Shown here: positions 7,730 through 13,151 of the stretch, piece after piece
Layout: every line of letters begins with the position of its first letter
How positions within the stretch are numbered: the first letter of the stretch is position 1
IMG/VR virus record: IMGVR_UViG_3300025138_000270
Coordinates: 1 to 27,438 of that record
DNA: 27,438 nucleotides
Direction: 5' to 3' (one strand)
Source of the DNA: a virus
The notes under the pieces: model-generated
Seen by the model: the letters and a program-made list of their open reading frames with translations, nothing else
Told to the model about the DNA's origin: nothing
Databases searched by the model: none
Position numbers and translations under genes: made by a program

Positions 7730-8787
7730 GTAATTTCTAGTGCCTGTGCTTCAGTCAATAAATTTCTCATTTCAATTTTAATCCTGCTTTTATCCAACTC
7801 AGTATCTACAGATTCAACATAACTATCAAGTAATGTTGTAGTATCTTCTACAGATACTCCTTCATCACCCACGCGCTCACCCATAAATTCTTCAAAGTTT
7901 TCACTTATCTTTAATTCATGGATATTCTTAGCATGTATTCTATCACAAAATTTGTCAAATGTAAAGGGGTCTTGTTTATTAACTACTACTACCTTGACGA
8001 ATTTATGATCAATATGATTGAGAGAATAATTATTATAATCAGTTCTGGTATCGTCATATACTATCTTTTCAAATAATGTGAATGGATTAACAATAGCCTC
8101 GATTTCTCTTGTTTCAGTGTCTAGCACATGAAAGTGTTTAGGATCATGGGCATCAGACCAGAAAAATTCCATTTGAGTACCGAGATACATGATATTATCT
8201 TGTTGAGATTTGGTATGAAAGTGACCAGATAGAACTAACTCAAATCTAGAAAATTCTTCTTTCGACATGCCATGGGTATTTTTAATGCCACGCATCATAT
8301 CAAAACCATTTAGTTCTAAGTGTCCACCAAGTATAGATGCTTTACAATTTTTAACAAAGTTCATAGACTCTGAATGATTTTCACTTGTAATCCATGGTAG
8401 TAATGCAATGTCAAGACCGCCATAATTCATAACAGTAGGTTTCATAATTATATGAACTTCATTCATATAGTGACCTAGCAATTCTTTCAATGAATTTAAT
8501 TCATTTGTATTTTTAAAATATGTATCATGATTGCCAGGTATGATATCCATAGTCATGCCGCGTTCACGCATAGGATTTAAAAAACTCTTGCGATTGTGAG
8601 TTAGTGCTTTAAAATTAATAAATTTACGATGGTCATAATAATCGCCCAGATGTAATATCTGTTTTATACCGTGCGCGTCACAGTATGGAAACATTATCTC
8701 AGAATAAAATTTACTAGCGTTTTCTAAGAATATATCCGAGCTATTTCTGATACCTGTATGAGTATCATTTATGATTAGTAATTTCAT
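7726..8787 (-). CDS. 47: Recombination nuclease subunit gp47 (Mre11/SbcD-like)
   Basis: Metallophosphoesterase nuclease partner of gp46. The metal-binding motifs are present in order: NDTHTG (Asp8, His10), LGDYYD (about 47-52), PGNHD (about 84-88), GGHLE (about 154-158) and SGHFH (about 187-191). The total of 353 residues is close to T4 gp47 (339). The C-terminal part lacks these motifs and probably binds gp46. ATGA overlaps occur at both ends: with the gp55 stop at its start and with the gp46 start at its end, so gp55-47-46 is one coupled unit. Confidence 0.97.
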   Translation of the reverse strand: MKLLIINDTHTGIRNSSDIFLENASKFYSEIMFPYCDAHGIKQILHLGDYYDHRKFINFKALTHNRKSFLNPMRERGMTMDIIPGNHDTYFKNTNELNSLKELLGHYMNEVHIIMKPTVMNYGGLDIALLPWITSENHSESMNFVKNCKASILGGHLELNGFDMMRGIKNTHGMSKEEFSRFELVLSGHFHTKSQQDNIMYLGTQMEFFWSDAHDPKHFHVLDTETREIEAIVNPFTLFEKIVYDDTRTDYNNYSLNHIDHKFVKVVVVNKQDPFTFDKFCDRIHAKNIHELKISENFEEFMGERVGDEGVSVEDTTTLLDSYVESVDTELDKSRIKIEMRNLLTEAQALEIT

Positions 8788-9377
8788 ATTAAAAAGTCTT
8801 TCAAATCAGAATCAACATTGACAGTTCTTTTCTTTCGTTGTTTTTCCTTTTTAGCAAATTCTTTCATGGAAGTATCTGTCTCTTTTACCTTGTCTATTCT
8901 ATCTTTTAAAACATCAATGAAATGTGTGGCCACTGAGGCTCCAGCTTCTCCTTGTTCGGTTACAAGAAATGCTTCTATACCTGATTGTGATAAATATTTT
9001 TCTTTTATATCTTGTTGGCGTTTTTCTTTTGCAATTCTTCTTAAAAATGCATACCAAATTATCTGAGTGAAATAAGCAAATGCATTTGGATTACCTGAGC
9101 GTGTAGCTGCATTGATATTATAATTTTCAACAGCTTTTAAACAGTTTTCTACCGCGTCCATTACCATTTCTTCACGGTAAGTATATCTAATAAAATTAGA
9201 CTTATGCGATAGATTCTCTGCAATTTTCAAAAAACATGCTGCCAAATAGTTAGGAACTATAGGCAAAGATTCTTTATTTTCTCTAGCTGTATTAATTGTT
9301 TTTACATATTCCACTATATTGTGAGAAAATTCTTTATTATCCACATAATGGGTACTCTTAGATTTCTTCTTTGCCAT
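8784..9377 (-). CDS. 55: Late-transcription sigma factor gp55
   Basis: Homologue of T4 gp55, the minimal sigma factor that directs host RNA polymerase to TATAAATA late promoters. The N-terminal THYVDNKEFSHNIVEYVKTI resembles T4 NYVNNKELLQAIIDWKTEL, and the segment from NPNAFAYFTQIIWYAFLRRI through KEKR corresponds to the region-2-like core. The C-terminus SDLKDFLI matches the hydrophobic/acidic tail that binds the gp45 clamp in T4. I start at ATG 9377 (MAKKKSK, 197 aa) because AAGGAG sits about 6 nt upstream; a further in-frame ATG at 9398 has no such site. A perfect-consensus sigma70 promoter lies directly upstream. The six TATAAATA boxes listed here are its likely targets. Confidence 0.95.
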   Translation of the reverse strand: MAKKKSKSTHYVDNKEFSHNIVEYVKTINTARENKESLPIVPNYLAACFLKIAENLSHKSNFIRYTYREEMVMDAVENCLKAVENYNINAATRSGNPNAFAYFTQIIWYAFLRRIAKEKRQQDIKEKYLSQSGIEAFLVTEQGEAGASVATHFIDVLKDRIDKVKETDTSMKEFAKKEKQRKKRTVNVDSDLKDFLI

Positions 9378-9400
9378 AATCACTCCTTCATAATACATAC

Positions 9401-9429
9401 ATTATATCACATATTTTATTTCTTGTCAA
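9401..9429 (-). promoter_or_regulatory. Consensus sigma70 promoter for gp55
   Basis: Minus strand TTGACA (9429-9424), 17-nt spacer, TATAAT (9406-9401): all twelve hexamer positions and the spacing are consensus. The start of transcription would fall just before the gp55 ribosome binding site. The -35 hexamer is one arm of a 9-bp inverted repeat shared with a divergent promoter. Confidence 0.88.
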
Positions 9430-9450
9430 CCGTCTTTTATGGGTTGACAA
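9423..9450. repeat. 9-bp inverted repeat holding both divergent -35 boxes
   Basis: TTGTCAACC (9423-9431) and GGTTGACAA (9442-9450) are perfect inverted copies separated by 10 bp. Each arm contains a TTGACA -35 hexamer, one per strand. The symmetry could simply follow from two consensus boxes, or it could be an operator for a dimeric regulator. Confidence 0.8.
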
Positions 9451-9471
9451 ATCCTAAGAATCTGTTATAAT
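9444..9471 (+). promoter_or_regulatory. Plus-strand consensus sigma70 promoter, antisense to the 150-aa gene and uvsW
   Basis: TTGACA (9444-9449), 16-nt spacer, TATAAT (9466-9471). Both hexamers are perfect. No plus-strand gene with a ribosome binding site follows; the transcript would run antisense into the 150-aa gene and uvsW. The -10 box lies in the loop of an 8-bp inverted repeat (9456-9480). Confidence 0.65.
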
Positions 9472-9480
9472 AAGATTCTT
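9456..9480. repeat. 8-bp inverted repeat around the plus-strand -10 box
   Basis: AAGAATCT (9456-9463) and AGATTCTT (9473-9480) are perfect inverted copies with a 9-nt loop containing TATAAT. In the minus direction it forms an AT-rich hairpin just after the 150-aa gene, without a following T-run, so it is a poor intrinsic terminator. An operator overlapping the promoter is possible. Confidence 0.7.
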
Positions 9481-9500
9481 CTTAGTGAGTGGGGTAGTAA

Positions 9501-9953
9501 CTAGTGTTTAGTTCCAGATGGAAACGTTATCACATTTTGATCTGAATCATATATATCTACTAATTTCTCTTTTAAGCCCAATCTTTCCATCCAACTAGAT
9601 GCATCTAGATATCCAATGTCATCTTGACTAGTATCATCTGCAGCTATTGCATTTAGATACTGTTCCATAACCTCTTCACTTGGAATACATTTTACTATAA
9701 TATGTTGGGGATTTAAAGAAGCTATATTATTTTTATGAACATCTTGAAAAGAAACCCAAGGATCAAGTGTACAGAATAGTTTGTTTTCTGAAACTCTAAC
9801 TTTAGTTATACTAAGACAGTTTCTAACAATTACTTCAAATTCATCATCAATTTCTTCTTCCATTAAGTCTTTAGGAATATCAATCATCTCACAAAGAATT
9901 TCTTCACCGTTGGTAAGTTTTAACTGTAGAATATTGTTTTTTCTTATATTCAT
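9501..9953 (-). CDS. Conserved-looking unknown after uvsW, possible Sm-like fold
   Basis: A 150-residue acidic, cytosolic protein. I recognise its type of position (following uvsW in marine T4-like phages) but not its function. The N-terminus NILQLKLTNGEEILCEM resembles the first strands of LSm/Hfq-like folds (a hydrophobic strand, then NGEEI), and the middle continues with beta-type patterns such as VIVRNCLSI and HIIVKCIP. The C-terminal third is acidic and probably flexible (DDTSQDDIGYLDASSWMERLG). The start overlaps the uvsW stop (ATGA). No catalytic motif is visible. The Sm-like idea rests on pattern only and needs a profile or structure comparison. Confidence 0.65.
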   Translation of the reverse strand: MNIRKNNILQLKLTNGEEILCEMIDIPKDLMEEEIDDEFEVIVRNCLSITKVRVSENKLFCTLDPWVSFQDVHKNNIASLNPQHIIVKCIPSEEVMEQYLNAIAADDTSQDDIGYLDASSWMERLGLKEKLVDIYDSDQNVITFPSGTKH

Positions 9954-11455
9954 ATTTTTATCCTATACTCTTTATACTGAAATTGCTCTTTTTGGTATAT
10001 CTTCAATCTTTCCTCACCATGAAGTAATGTATAATTTTTTCTAGATTTGTGTTGTAGATTATCAACTAGATCGTATAGCTTACTTATACGACCATCATCA
10101 CTCTTCCTTAAGCTTCTACCAATACTTTGCAATACTCTAATTTGAGACTTACTAGGAGATGCAAATACTATATTGTGTAGATTCTTTATATTTATACCTG
10201 TACTAAAAGTACCAAGACTAGCAACAATGATAGAATCTTTTTGAGTTTCAACAATTTTTCTTATCGTTTCTCGGTCTGTAGCATCTGTTTGACCTGAGAC
10301 ATAAAATACCTTTCTGCTTTCTTCAGCTTTATTCAGAATTAGATCATACAACACTTTGCCGTGTTTGTCAACAAATTGAAATAATACCAGAGTGTTACCT
10401 TTCATATCAATTGAAAGATTTCTTATAAATTTATTTCTGCGTTCATTTGCTACAATCCAATTAATCTCTTGCTGATATGTTTTGCCTACATTTTCTTTTT
10501 TATCTGTTTCATTGTAATCTAAAGTTAGCATAAAAATATTAAGAGGTGCAAGTGTGTCATCATCTTGTAATTTTTTAGTGGTAGTAACTTTTCTTACTTT
10601 GCCAAAAAGACCTTCTAGTACAAGTTTATGTGTTTGAGTACCATCAAGTGTGCCTGTTGTGCCGTATCGATATGCAGTATTTACACATTTATTCATAATA
10701 GAAGTTAATGATTTTGATTTGAATCCATGACATTCATCTCCAAAAACACCGTAGAATTGTTGAAACCAAGCCGGCGGCAGTTTATATACAGACTGCCAAG
10801 TTGAAATGACAACATTTTCTTCCATATCTTTTGCTTTACCCGAAAATATTTTGTGGCATTCTTGTACGGCATTCCAAGAATCATGAGATGAATAATCAGC
10901 AAAGTCCGCATACATCTGTTCAACCAATGAAGTTGTCGGTACAATGATCAGAATTTTTTTATCATCACACCTTTCAAGTAACCAACGTAGTAACACATAA
11001 ATTATTAAAGATTTACCACTACCTGTAGGAGATAATAATATTGATCTTTTATTTGTAATTGCAGTACAGATAGCATCGAATTGATAATCTCTTACAGTAA
11101 TAGGATTACCATTACCTCTCAAATTAAGACTGGTAATAAACTTCATTATTTCTTCTGGATCAACAGCATTATATTGTTCTGGTGATCCATATTCACCATC
11201 TTCATATTCTAATTCATAACCGCGTTTTTTTGCAAATTCTTTAAGTTGATGTAAAAGACCAACAGGTAATTCTTGCACCAAAGCATTGAATATTCTTATC
11301 TTGCCATCCCAAACTTTGTTTCTGTAGAGTGGCATGTACTTATAGCCGTCAACAAAAAATGAGAAATATTCATTCAATTCCATTAAGATGCCACTATCAG
11401 CATCAACTAGCAATTGACTCTCATTCTTTTTACCTACTGTAATCTTTTCAATCAT
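9950..11455 (-). CDS. uvsW: UvsW helicase (superfamily 2)
   Basis: RNA/DNA and branch-migration helicase homologous to T4 UvsW. T4 UvsW unwinds R-loops to stop origin-dependent initiation and rescues stalled forks. Visible motifs are motif I PTGSGKS (about 143-149), Ia VPTTSLVEQ (about 172-180), motif II DECH (about 240-243), motif III TTGTLDG (about 266-272), and C-terminal motifs SLGTFSTGINIKN and QSIGRSLRK. The N-terminal 115 residues match the small UvsW accessory domain (FFVDGYKYMPLYRNKVWDGK). It has 501 residues, close to T4 (503). The start overlaps the uvsY stop (TAATG). Confidence 0.96.
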   Translation of the reverse strand: MIEKITVGKKNESQLLVDADSGILMELNEYFSFFVDGYKYMPLYRNKVWDGKIRIFNALVQELPVGLLHQLKEFAKKRGYELEYEDGEYGSPEQYNAVDPEEIMKFITSLNLRGNGNPITVRDYQFDAICTAITNKRSILLSPTGSGKSLIIYVLLRWLLERCDDKKILIIVPTTSLVEQMYADFADYSSHDSWNAVQECHKIFSGKAKDMEENVVISTWQSVYKLPPAWFQQFYGVFGDECHGFKSKSLTSIMNKCVNTAYRYGTTGTLDGTQTHKLVLEGLFGKVRKVTTTKKLQDDDTLAPLNIFMLTLDYNETDKKENVGKTYQQEINWIVANERRNKFIRNLSIDMKGNTLVLFQFVDKHGKVLYDLILNKAEESRKVFYVSGQTDATDRETIRKIVETQKDSIIVASLGTFSTGINIKNLHNIVFASPSKSQIRVLQSIGRSLRKSDDGRISKLYDLVDNLQHKSRKNYTLLHGEERLKIYQKEQFQYKEYRIKI

Positions 11456-12447: not shown

Positions 12448-12476
12448 TTGACAATACCTCTTTTTTATGCTAGATT
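12448..12476 (+). promoter_or_regulatory. Extended -10 sigma70 promoter for the plus-strand island
   Basis: TTGACA (12448-12453), 17-nt spacer, and TAGATT (12471-12476) preceded by TGC, giving an extended -10. The gene it serves starts at 12513 after a ribosome binding site AAAGGG. No TATAAATA is seen on this strand, so the island is probably expressed early by host-type polymerase. Confidence 0.7.
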
Positions 12477-12512: not shown

Positions 12513-12872
12513 ATGACTAAGTTCAACAAAAAAGACTTCACATACTTCGGTGGATACCTTCACTACACTGGAGATTATACAGATCGTCCAGTTTGGCCAG
12601 CAGTTTCAAAAAATGGCGTAAATGTTCATCCATCACGTGTTGGTAAACCAAAAGACCTCTTTATCGCTCGGTTCAAGTACGGCGGTCCATTCACAAAAGC
12701 AAAATTTGTTGCAGAACTGGTAAAGTCTTTTACTGTTGAAGAATATGTTGATGCAAGAAATGAAGAAGGTTTAGAAGTAAGCCACGCACCTCTTGATATT
12801 CTGCGTAATAAGAATGAAGAATGGTACAACAAAACAATCCAAAATTGGAAAATGAAAAGAGGAGTTTTATAA
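12513..12872 (+). CDS. Hypothetical protein, first gene of the plus-strand island
   Basis: A 119-residue soluble protein, rich in aromatics and Lys, and one of only two plus-strand genes in the window. It has FTYFGGYLHYTG near the N-terminus, FIARFKYGGPFTKAKFVAELV in the middle and FTVEEYVDARNEEG toward the C-terminus. I recall similar short hypotheticals in marine T4-like phages but cannot name a family or function. No catalytic, membrane or zinc motif is seen. AAAGGG precedes ATG. The stop overlaps the next start (TAATG), making a two-gene operon that ends at an intrinsic terminator. The early-type promoter and opposite orientation suggest a host-takeover or accessory role, which is inference only. 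Confidence 0.8.
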   Translation: MTKFNKKDFTYFGGYLHYTGDYTDRPVWPAVSKNGVNVHPSRVGKPKDLFIARFKYGGPFTKAKFVAELVKSFTVEEYVDARNEEGLEVSHAPLDILRNKNEEWYNKTIQNWKMKRGVL

Positions 12873-13081
12873 TGCAAGTCGTAACAGTTAGATTTACAGG
12901 TTCGATGGTTAAGCCATCACACCACGATTGTCAAATTGTAGAAGGTTCTATGAGTATGCGATATGATTTGCGGGAAGATGATGCTAATCCTCCAGTATGT
13001 AAAATTATCTCACCATTCGGTAAAGATAATACATTAGAAGCATTTTATATGAATGAACAATGGAACTGTTGGTTAGATTAA
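12872..13081 (+). CDS. Hypothetical protein, second gene of the plus-strand island
   Basis: A 69-residue protein of unknown family. Its start is fixed by ATG 12872 in a TAATG overlap with the previous stop and by GAGGAG about 7 nt upstream; a longer frame beginning at 12821 lies wholly within the upstream gene and has no such site. Visible features: a beta-like N-terminus (VVTVRFTGSMV), HH at about 16-17, two cysteines in the body (about 19 and 43), one near the end (NCWLD), and a net acidic composition. It is followed within 40 nt by the twin terminators. Confidence 0.7.
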   Translation: MQVVTVRFTGSMVKPSHHDCQIVEGSMSMRYDLREDDANPPVCKIISPFGKDNTLEAFYMNEQWNCWLD

Positions 13082-13109
13082 AAAAAGACAGTGCCGAAAC
13101 ACTGTCTTT
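13081..13109 (-). terminator. Intrinsic terminator of the gp23 transcript
   Basis: AAAGACAGTG (13084-13093) pairs perfectly with CACTGTCTTT (13100-13109) across a 6-nt loop. Read on the minus strand the hairpin is followed by a run of T (complement of the A-run at 13081-13086). It lies after the gp23 stop and would keep late head-gene transcripts out of the plus-strand island. Confidence 0.85.
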
Positions 13110-13119
13110 GAGTAGTAGT

Positions 13120-13151
13120 AAAGAGCGCCCTCTGTGTGGCGCTCTTTTTTT
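13120..13151 (+). terminator. Intrinsic terminator of the plus-strand island
   Basis: AAAGAGCGCC (13120-13129) pairs perfectly with GGCGCTCTTT (13138-13147) across an 8-nt loop, followed by a T-run to 13151. It is GC-rich in the stem and a strong rho-independent terminator. It is placed after the plus-strand genes and immediately before the converging gp23 gene end. Confidence 0.9.

Follow-up and report, generated by a model that had tools for sequence, protein, structure and literature searches.

A gene-free promoter in helical phase with the gp55 promoter may form part of late sigma factor control in marine T4-like phages

Upstream of gp55, whose product activates the late genes of T4-like phages, a second predicted promoter that has no evident product points away from gp55 and tends to be phase-locked to the gp55 promoter. 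We tentatively propose, at somewhat less than an even chance of being right, that this promoter is a conserved part of late sigma factor control in marine T4-like phages and that their early-to-late switch consists of two back-to-back polymerase sites, probably with a phage-specific regulator at the antisense start, rather than of a repressor gene and its promoter. From the comparisons below, there is a nearly even chance that both promoters act together as a single cis-regulatory unit setting gp55 expression. Marine T4-like phages lack MotA (PMC2984593), and the gene-free promoter would provide a concrete and easily mutated handle on how they time the late switch. The element is not mentioned in the literature that we found on these phages.

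The window, meaning the whole 27,438-nt stretch of DNA that was analysed (27.4 kb), is a T4-like phage fragment in which the minus strand holds nearly all genes, with the local order uvsY - uvsW - 150-aa gene - gp55 - 47 - 46. The genes and promoters at the gp55 locus are:

8784..9377 (-), gp55, late-transcription sigma factor (phrog_234, E 2e-51 for the 8784-9398 ORF)
9401..9429 (-), gp55 promoter: -35 TTGACA 9429-9424, spacer 17, -10 TATAAT 9406-9401, extended -10
9430..9443, gap of 14 bp separating the -35 boxes, whose centres lie 20 bp (about two helical turns) apart
9444..9471 (+), antisense, gene-free promoter: -35 TTGACA 9444-9449, spacer 16, -10 TATAAT 9466-9471, extended -10
9501..9953 (-), 150-aa gene upstream of gp55, phrog_471 family, predicted Sm/LSm-like fold
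9950..11455 (-), uvsW helicase

The gp55 start codon is most likely the ATG at 9377, which is preceded by GGAG, rather than 9398. The 150-aa gene is the first that the predicted antisense transcript would enter, with the start of uvsW lying past it, about 470 nt away in the antisense direction. The PHROGs label of the 150-aa protein, 'methylamine utilization', is probably wrong, because its predicted fold is Sm/LSm (best PDB match, 3by7). On the plus strand, two overlapping ORFs at 12513-13147 form a small island of opposite orientation beside the major capsid gene, with a promoter-like site at 12448 and facing terminators at 13084-13109 and 13120-13147.

The original prediction of divergent, perfect sigma70 promoters with spacers of 17 (minus strand) and 16 (plus strand) is confirmed. 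Both are 12/12 matches, each has a TG one base ahead of the -10 box, and they are the only perfect sigma70 sites in the window, for which the expectation is 0.03 per strand. Based on the positions of the -10 boxes, which span 71 bp between their outer edges, transcription is predicted to start at ~9394 (-) and ~9478 (+), ~84 bp apart.

Regions upstream of gp55 were compared across viral-contig loci, cyanophage-like loci and the records of annotated cyanophages, Melnitz, C48C1 and phiM7, with a promoter called at a best score of at least 10/12 and shuffled sequence as the control. The antisense promoter reaches this threshold in 88% of the 113 distinct regions from the window clade (marine T4-like phages; shuffled, 6.5%) and in 99% of the 134 cyanophage intergenic regions (shuffled, 4.6%), and gp55's own promoter does so in 71% and 93%, respectively. 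By these calls the two promoters are about equally well conserved, and for the antisense promoter the pattern that had been named as counting against it, loss of the plus-strand hexamers with the gp55 promoter kept, is not what the relatives display. The antisense promoter falls below threshold in 12% of the window-clade regions and in 21 of 105 newly fetched regions, and the element is absent from the Vibrio Straboviridae because gp55 has almost no intergenic gap upstream in these phages. Conservation across the relatives extends to the hexamers but not to the spacer. In S-RIM8 and S-RIM2 the non-coding strand of the whole genome has just two or three strong promoters, of which the gp55 site is one.

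No plus-strand gene follows the antisense promoter, as had been predicted; the longest ORF starting within 100 nt encodes 26 aa and has no evident Shine-Dalgarno sequence. An antisense ORF was likewise rejected for the relatives, amongst which the reading frames are short and unrelated with none conserved, several loci read GTG followed by an immediate stop, and the apparent antisense start codon is the reverse complement of the conserved His-stop that ends the upstream gene. Behind the corresponding antisense promoter, Sinorhizobium phage phiM7 has an annotated ORF of 50 aa, gp36 (locus L177, 2111-2263, minus strand), and other copies of the element drive small ORFs (see below), as would be expected if the promoter were the relic of a lost small gene of the gp36 kind, but conservation of about 90% in two large groups without any conserved ORF makes such a relic very improbable.

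There is also little to define an RNA product. The antisense strand has no conserved intrinsic terminator (5 of 218 loci have one within 500 nt), and neither the window nor 11 relatives match an Rfam family. A short regulatory RNA starting from ~9478 and handled by the adjacent Sm/LSm-like protein would fit the conservation of the start block and the predicted fold of the neighbour; yet conservation spans only ~30 nt, terminator and Rfam match are both lacking, and the phasing of the promoters is left unexplained. We consider this RNA-based reading quite improbable because there is no conserved RNA body.

From a promoter this well conserved, one would expect an RNA antisense to the 150-aa gene. 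It had been suggested that such an RNA keeps UvsW low, a suggestion that the comparison does not support; uvsW lies some distance off, and neither a terminator nor a conserved sequence points to an RNA extending that far. More than 10 loci have another gene, of about 200-228 aa and from one of several families, between the 150-aa gene and gp55, and in most of these the element still abuts gp55, indicating that the antisense promoter is usually linked to gp55 and not to the upstream gene. A dedicated uvsW antisense RNA is unsupported because the element usually stays by gp55 when another gene takes the place of the 150-aa gene, and for uvsW neither a constant overlap with the target nor an RNA end defined by a terminator (intrinsic terminators only) was found. 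In parts of the clade two gene families, ~210-218 aa and unrelated to each other, lie between the Sm-like gene and gp55 (L066, L052, L021, L059, L079 and L074; L010, L012, L014 and L019).

In a broader form, antisense transcription may act on the upstream operon, either as an asRNA against the 150-aa/uvsW message or, whatever the target gene, through collisions with polymerases travelling from uvsW to gp55, which would insulate gp55 from read-through. The orientation and deep conservation of the promoter are consistent with such a role, as is the position of the antisense -10, which, whatever the upstream gene, lies about 25-42 nt from its stop codon in every case, and an antisense RNA, CfrI, is known from S-PM2 (PMC2984593). 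However, the target gene changes while the element stays, there is no terminator, and an action on the upstream operon does not explain the phasing with the gp55 promoter; we regard it as unlikely, if still worth keeping in view. CfrI resembles the present case as antisense transcription in a T4-like cyanophage, but it is ~225 nt long, lies at psbA and was seen experimentally (PMC2984593), whereas the element described here lies at gp55, is near-universal in the group and is predicted from sequence.

Gaps between the -35 hexamers of the two promoters are unevenly distributed and cluster at 14, 24, 34, 44 and 55 bp, with singletons at 4 and -7, and for 72 window-clade loci dereplicated by gp55 a scan from 7 to 15 bp returns a best period of 10.25 bp (R 0.79). 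The phasing prediction was fixed beforehand and then tried on newly fetched loci sharing little sequence, of which 72 of 84 were in phase, compared with 41 expected. Pooling 161 non-redundant regions gives a best period of 10.3 bp (R 0.742), and R is 0.81 when both promoters score at least 11; when antisense and sense promoters from different loci are re-paired, the mean R is 0.07 and the maximum 0.231 in 5000 trials. The -35 centre-to-centre distances are near-integral helical turns with an offset of -0.85 bp (exactly 20 bp in the window), and two control distances, one separating the sense -10 and the gp55 ATG and the other the antisense -10 and the stop codon of the upstream gene, have no 10-bp periodicity.

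The promoters of the cyanophages often overlap (gaps of -16, -7 and 1 to 9), and phasing in this group taken alone is only suggestive, with p of 0.07-0.44 after strict dereplication. The phasing p values treat loci as independent and, as the loci are related, overstate that independence; the stronger argument is that several in-phase classes are well filled and the classes between them nearly empty. The spacing rule points to an interaction between the two promoters, and whole-turn spacing kept across natural genomes is unusually direct sequence evidence for one. Phasing could also arise from DNA bending or from shared UP elements, without regulation.

Two inverted repeats named in the original prediction are present in the window:

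9423..9450, 9-bp inverted repeat (arms 9423-9431/9442-9450), 9/9 bp paired, not conserved as a unit
9456..9480, 8-bp inverted repeat flanking the plus-strand -10 (arms 9456-9463/9473-9480), 8/8 bp paired

Six of the nine pairs in the first repeat are the two divergent -35 hexamers themselves. Neither repeat is conserved among the relatives, where the -35 spacing varies and the 8-bp repeat is broken even in the close relatives L082, L083 and L089, and the two palindromes were rejected as operators. The idea of an operator for a dimeric repressor, which had been raised for this site, loses the palindromes on which it was based; the shared helical face of the promoters and an imperfect dyad at the antisense start speak for it, and it comes closer to the mark than an antisense RNA on uvsW.

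The dyad belongs to a block that follows the antisense -10, which was delimited in the window from the match of 9442-9505 to model R2 and from alignment A2:

9472..9505 (+), conserved stretch downstream of the antisense -10, comprising the discriminator, the predicted start (~9478), the G-rich strip GAGTGGGG and the beginning of TAGTA-CTA

In the window clade the antisense -10 is often followed by an AAAGAG...CTCTTT-like dyad and then by a G-rich strip and TATAC, and the conserved stretch directly after the -10 in the cyanophages is AACNNTGTNAGGGTTCA. Block models were built from gp55 sites alone and then used to scan genomes, most of which contain one or two extra full-length copies, with the element at only 2-3 sites per genome. 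Some of these other copies are ordinary promoters of small ORFs or of a gp25-like or protease-like gene (gene names read from sequence, without database search), and others are gene-free. The recurrences (L344, L345 and L349, from the records of L092 and L064; L338-L343, from S-RIM2, S-RIM8, S-H38, S-RIM44 and Syn30) precede the gp25-like gene and a conserved ORF of 67-75 aa, lie in some cases at gene-free divergent sites, and have a genome-specific start sequence.

Copies of the block resemble one another more closely when they come from one genome than when they come from different genomes (permutation p 0.008 and 0.0025). The -35/-10 spacers have no such within-genome likeness in the cyanophages and do have it in the window clade (p 0.001), and because of this the likeness of the window-clade blocks may come from duplication. 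The cyanophage dyad displays modest covariation, at one inner position. A phage-specific factor acting at the dyad of the antisense start is a reasonable inference from these patterns. An RNA hairpin was rejected, as the dyad straddles the predicted start and its first arm should not be transcribed, and a G-T/C-A asymmetry in the dyad was set aside, as it rests mostly on one related group.

The start block also bears on a possible role in replication, in which the antisense transcript, with its G-rich purine start, would stay hybridised as an R-loop and prime DNA synthesis until unwound later by the neighbouring uvsW helicase. A gene-free promoter close to uvsY/uvsW and a G/purine-rich predicted transcript start would be consistent with such an origin, and oriF and oriG of T4 are R-loop origins that depend on a promoter and that UvsW silences (PMC3016281). 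As at those origins, a promoter would here be used other than for a protein and near uvsW/uvsY, but oriF and oriG consist of MotA-dependent middle promoters and an A+T-rich unwinding element (PMC3016281). A MotA-type middle promoter is absent, its position being occupied by the consensus -35 TTGACA, although T4 origins with early promoters, such as oriE, also exist (PMC3016281). GC skew has no turn at this site in any of the four genomes analysed, ORFs lie behind other copies of the element, and the phasing is again unexplained; an R-loop origin appears improbable.

If the two promoters instead form a unit that sets gp55 expression, the plus-strand promoter, of host-sigma70 type and with a transcript that would code for nothing, would likely serve for binding and initiation by RNA polymerase, or for binding of a phage regulator. 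The polymerase or regulator would sit in register with the gp55 promoter, on the same face of the helix, and occupancy of one site would help or hinder the other. At the antisense start, the imperfect dyad that is common to only 2-3 promoters in each genome and differs between phages would be the likely site of the phage factor, and a unit coupled in this manner may time the switch to late transcription.

In lambda PR/PRM and pLS20 Pr/Pc (PMC4207663), two back-to-back sigma70-type promoters likewise share one short stretch, from which they govern a developmental switch. Spacing in whole helical turns is a further similarity, and one that cooperative contacts between proteins would need. Two features of a cooperative divergent switch are found here, the back-to-back promoters and, in the window clade and weakly in the cyanophages alone, the integral turns; the dyad at the antisense start is a candidate for the operator of a dedicated regulator. 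Unlike those systems, one of the promoters is gene-free, the phages are T4-like and presumably lytic with no repressor known, and relatives differ from one another in spacing by whole turns. Bacterial bidirectional promoters, with start sites 10-23 bp apart and a shared -10 sequence (PMC12825309), have in common with the gp55 site the divergent initiation from one intergenic region and a possible competition for polymerase; the distance between the predicted starts and the separate -35/-10 pairs place the site outside that definition.

A further candidate sign of coupling was the -35 variant (TTGACA, TTTACA or TGTACA), which agrees between the paired promoters in 68 of 91 cases, compared with 30 by shuffling. 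This was rejected as evidence, the covariation being largely explained by a promoter flavour common to each genome. Over whole loci (L002-L164), the -35 flavour differs by phage lineage and is largely uniform within a genome, which suggests host- or phage-specific sigma preferences.
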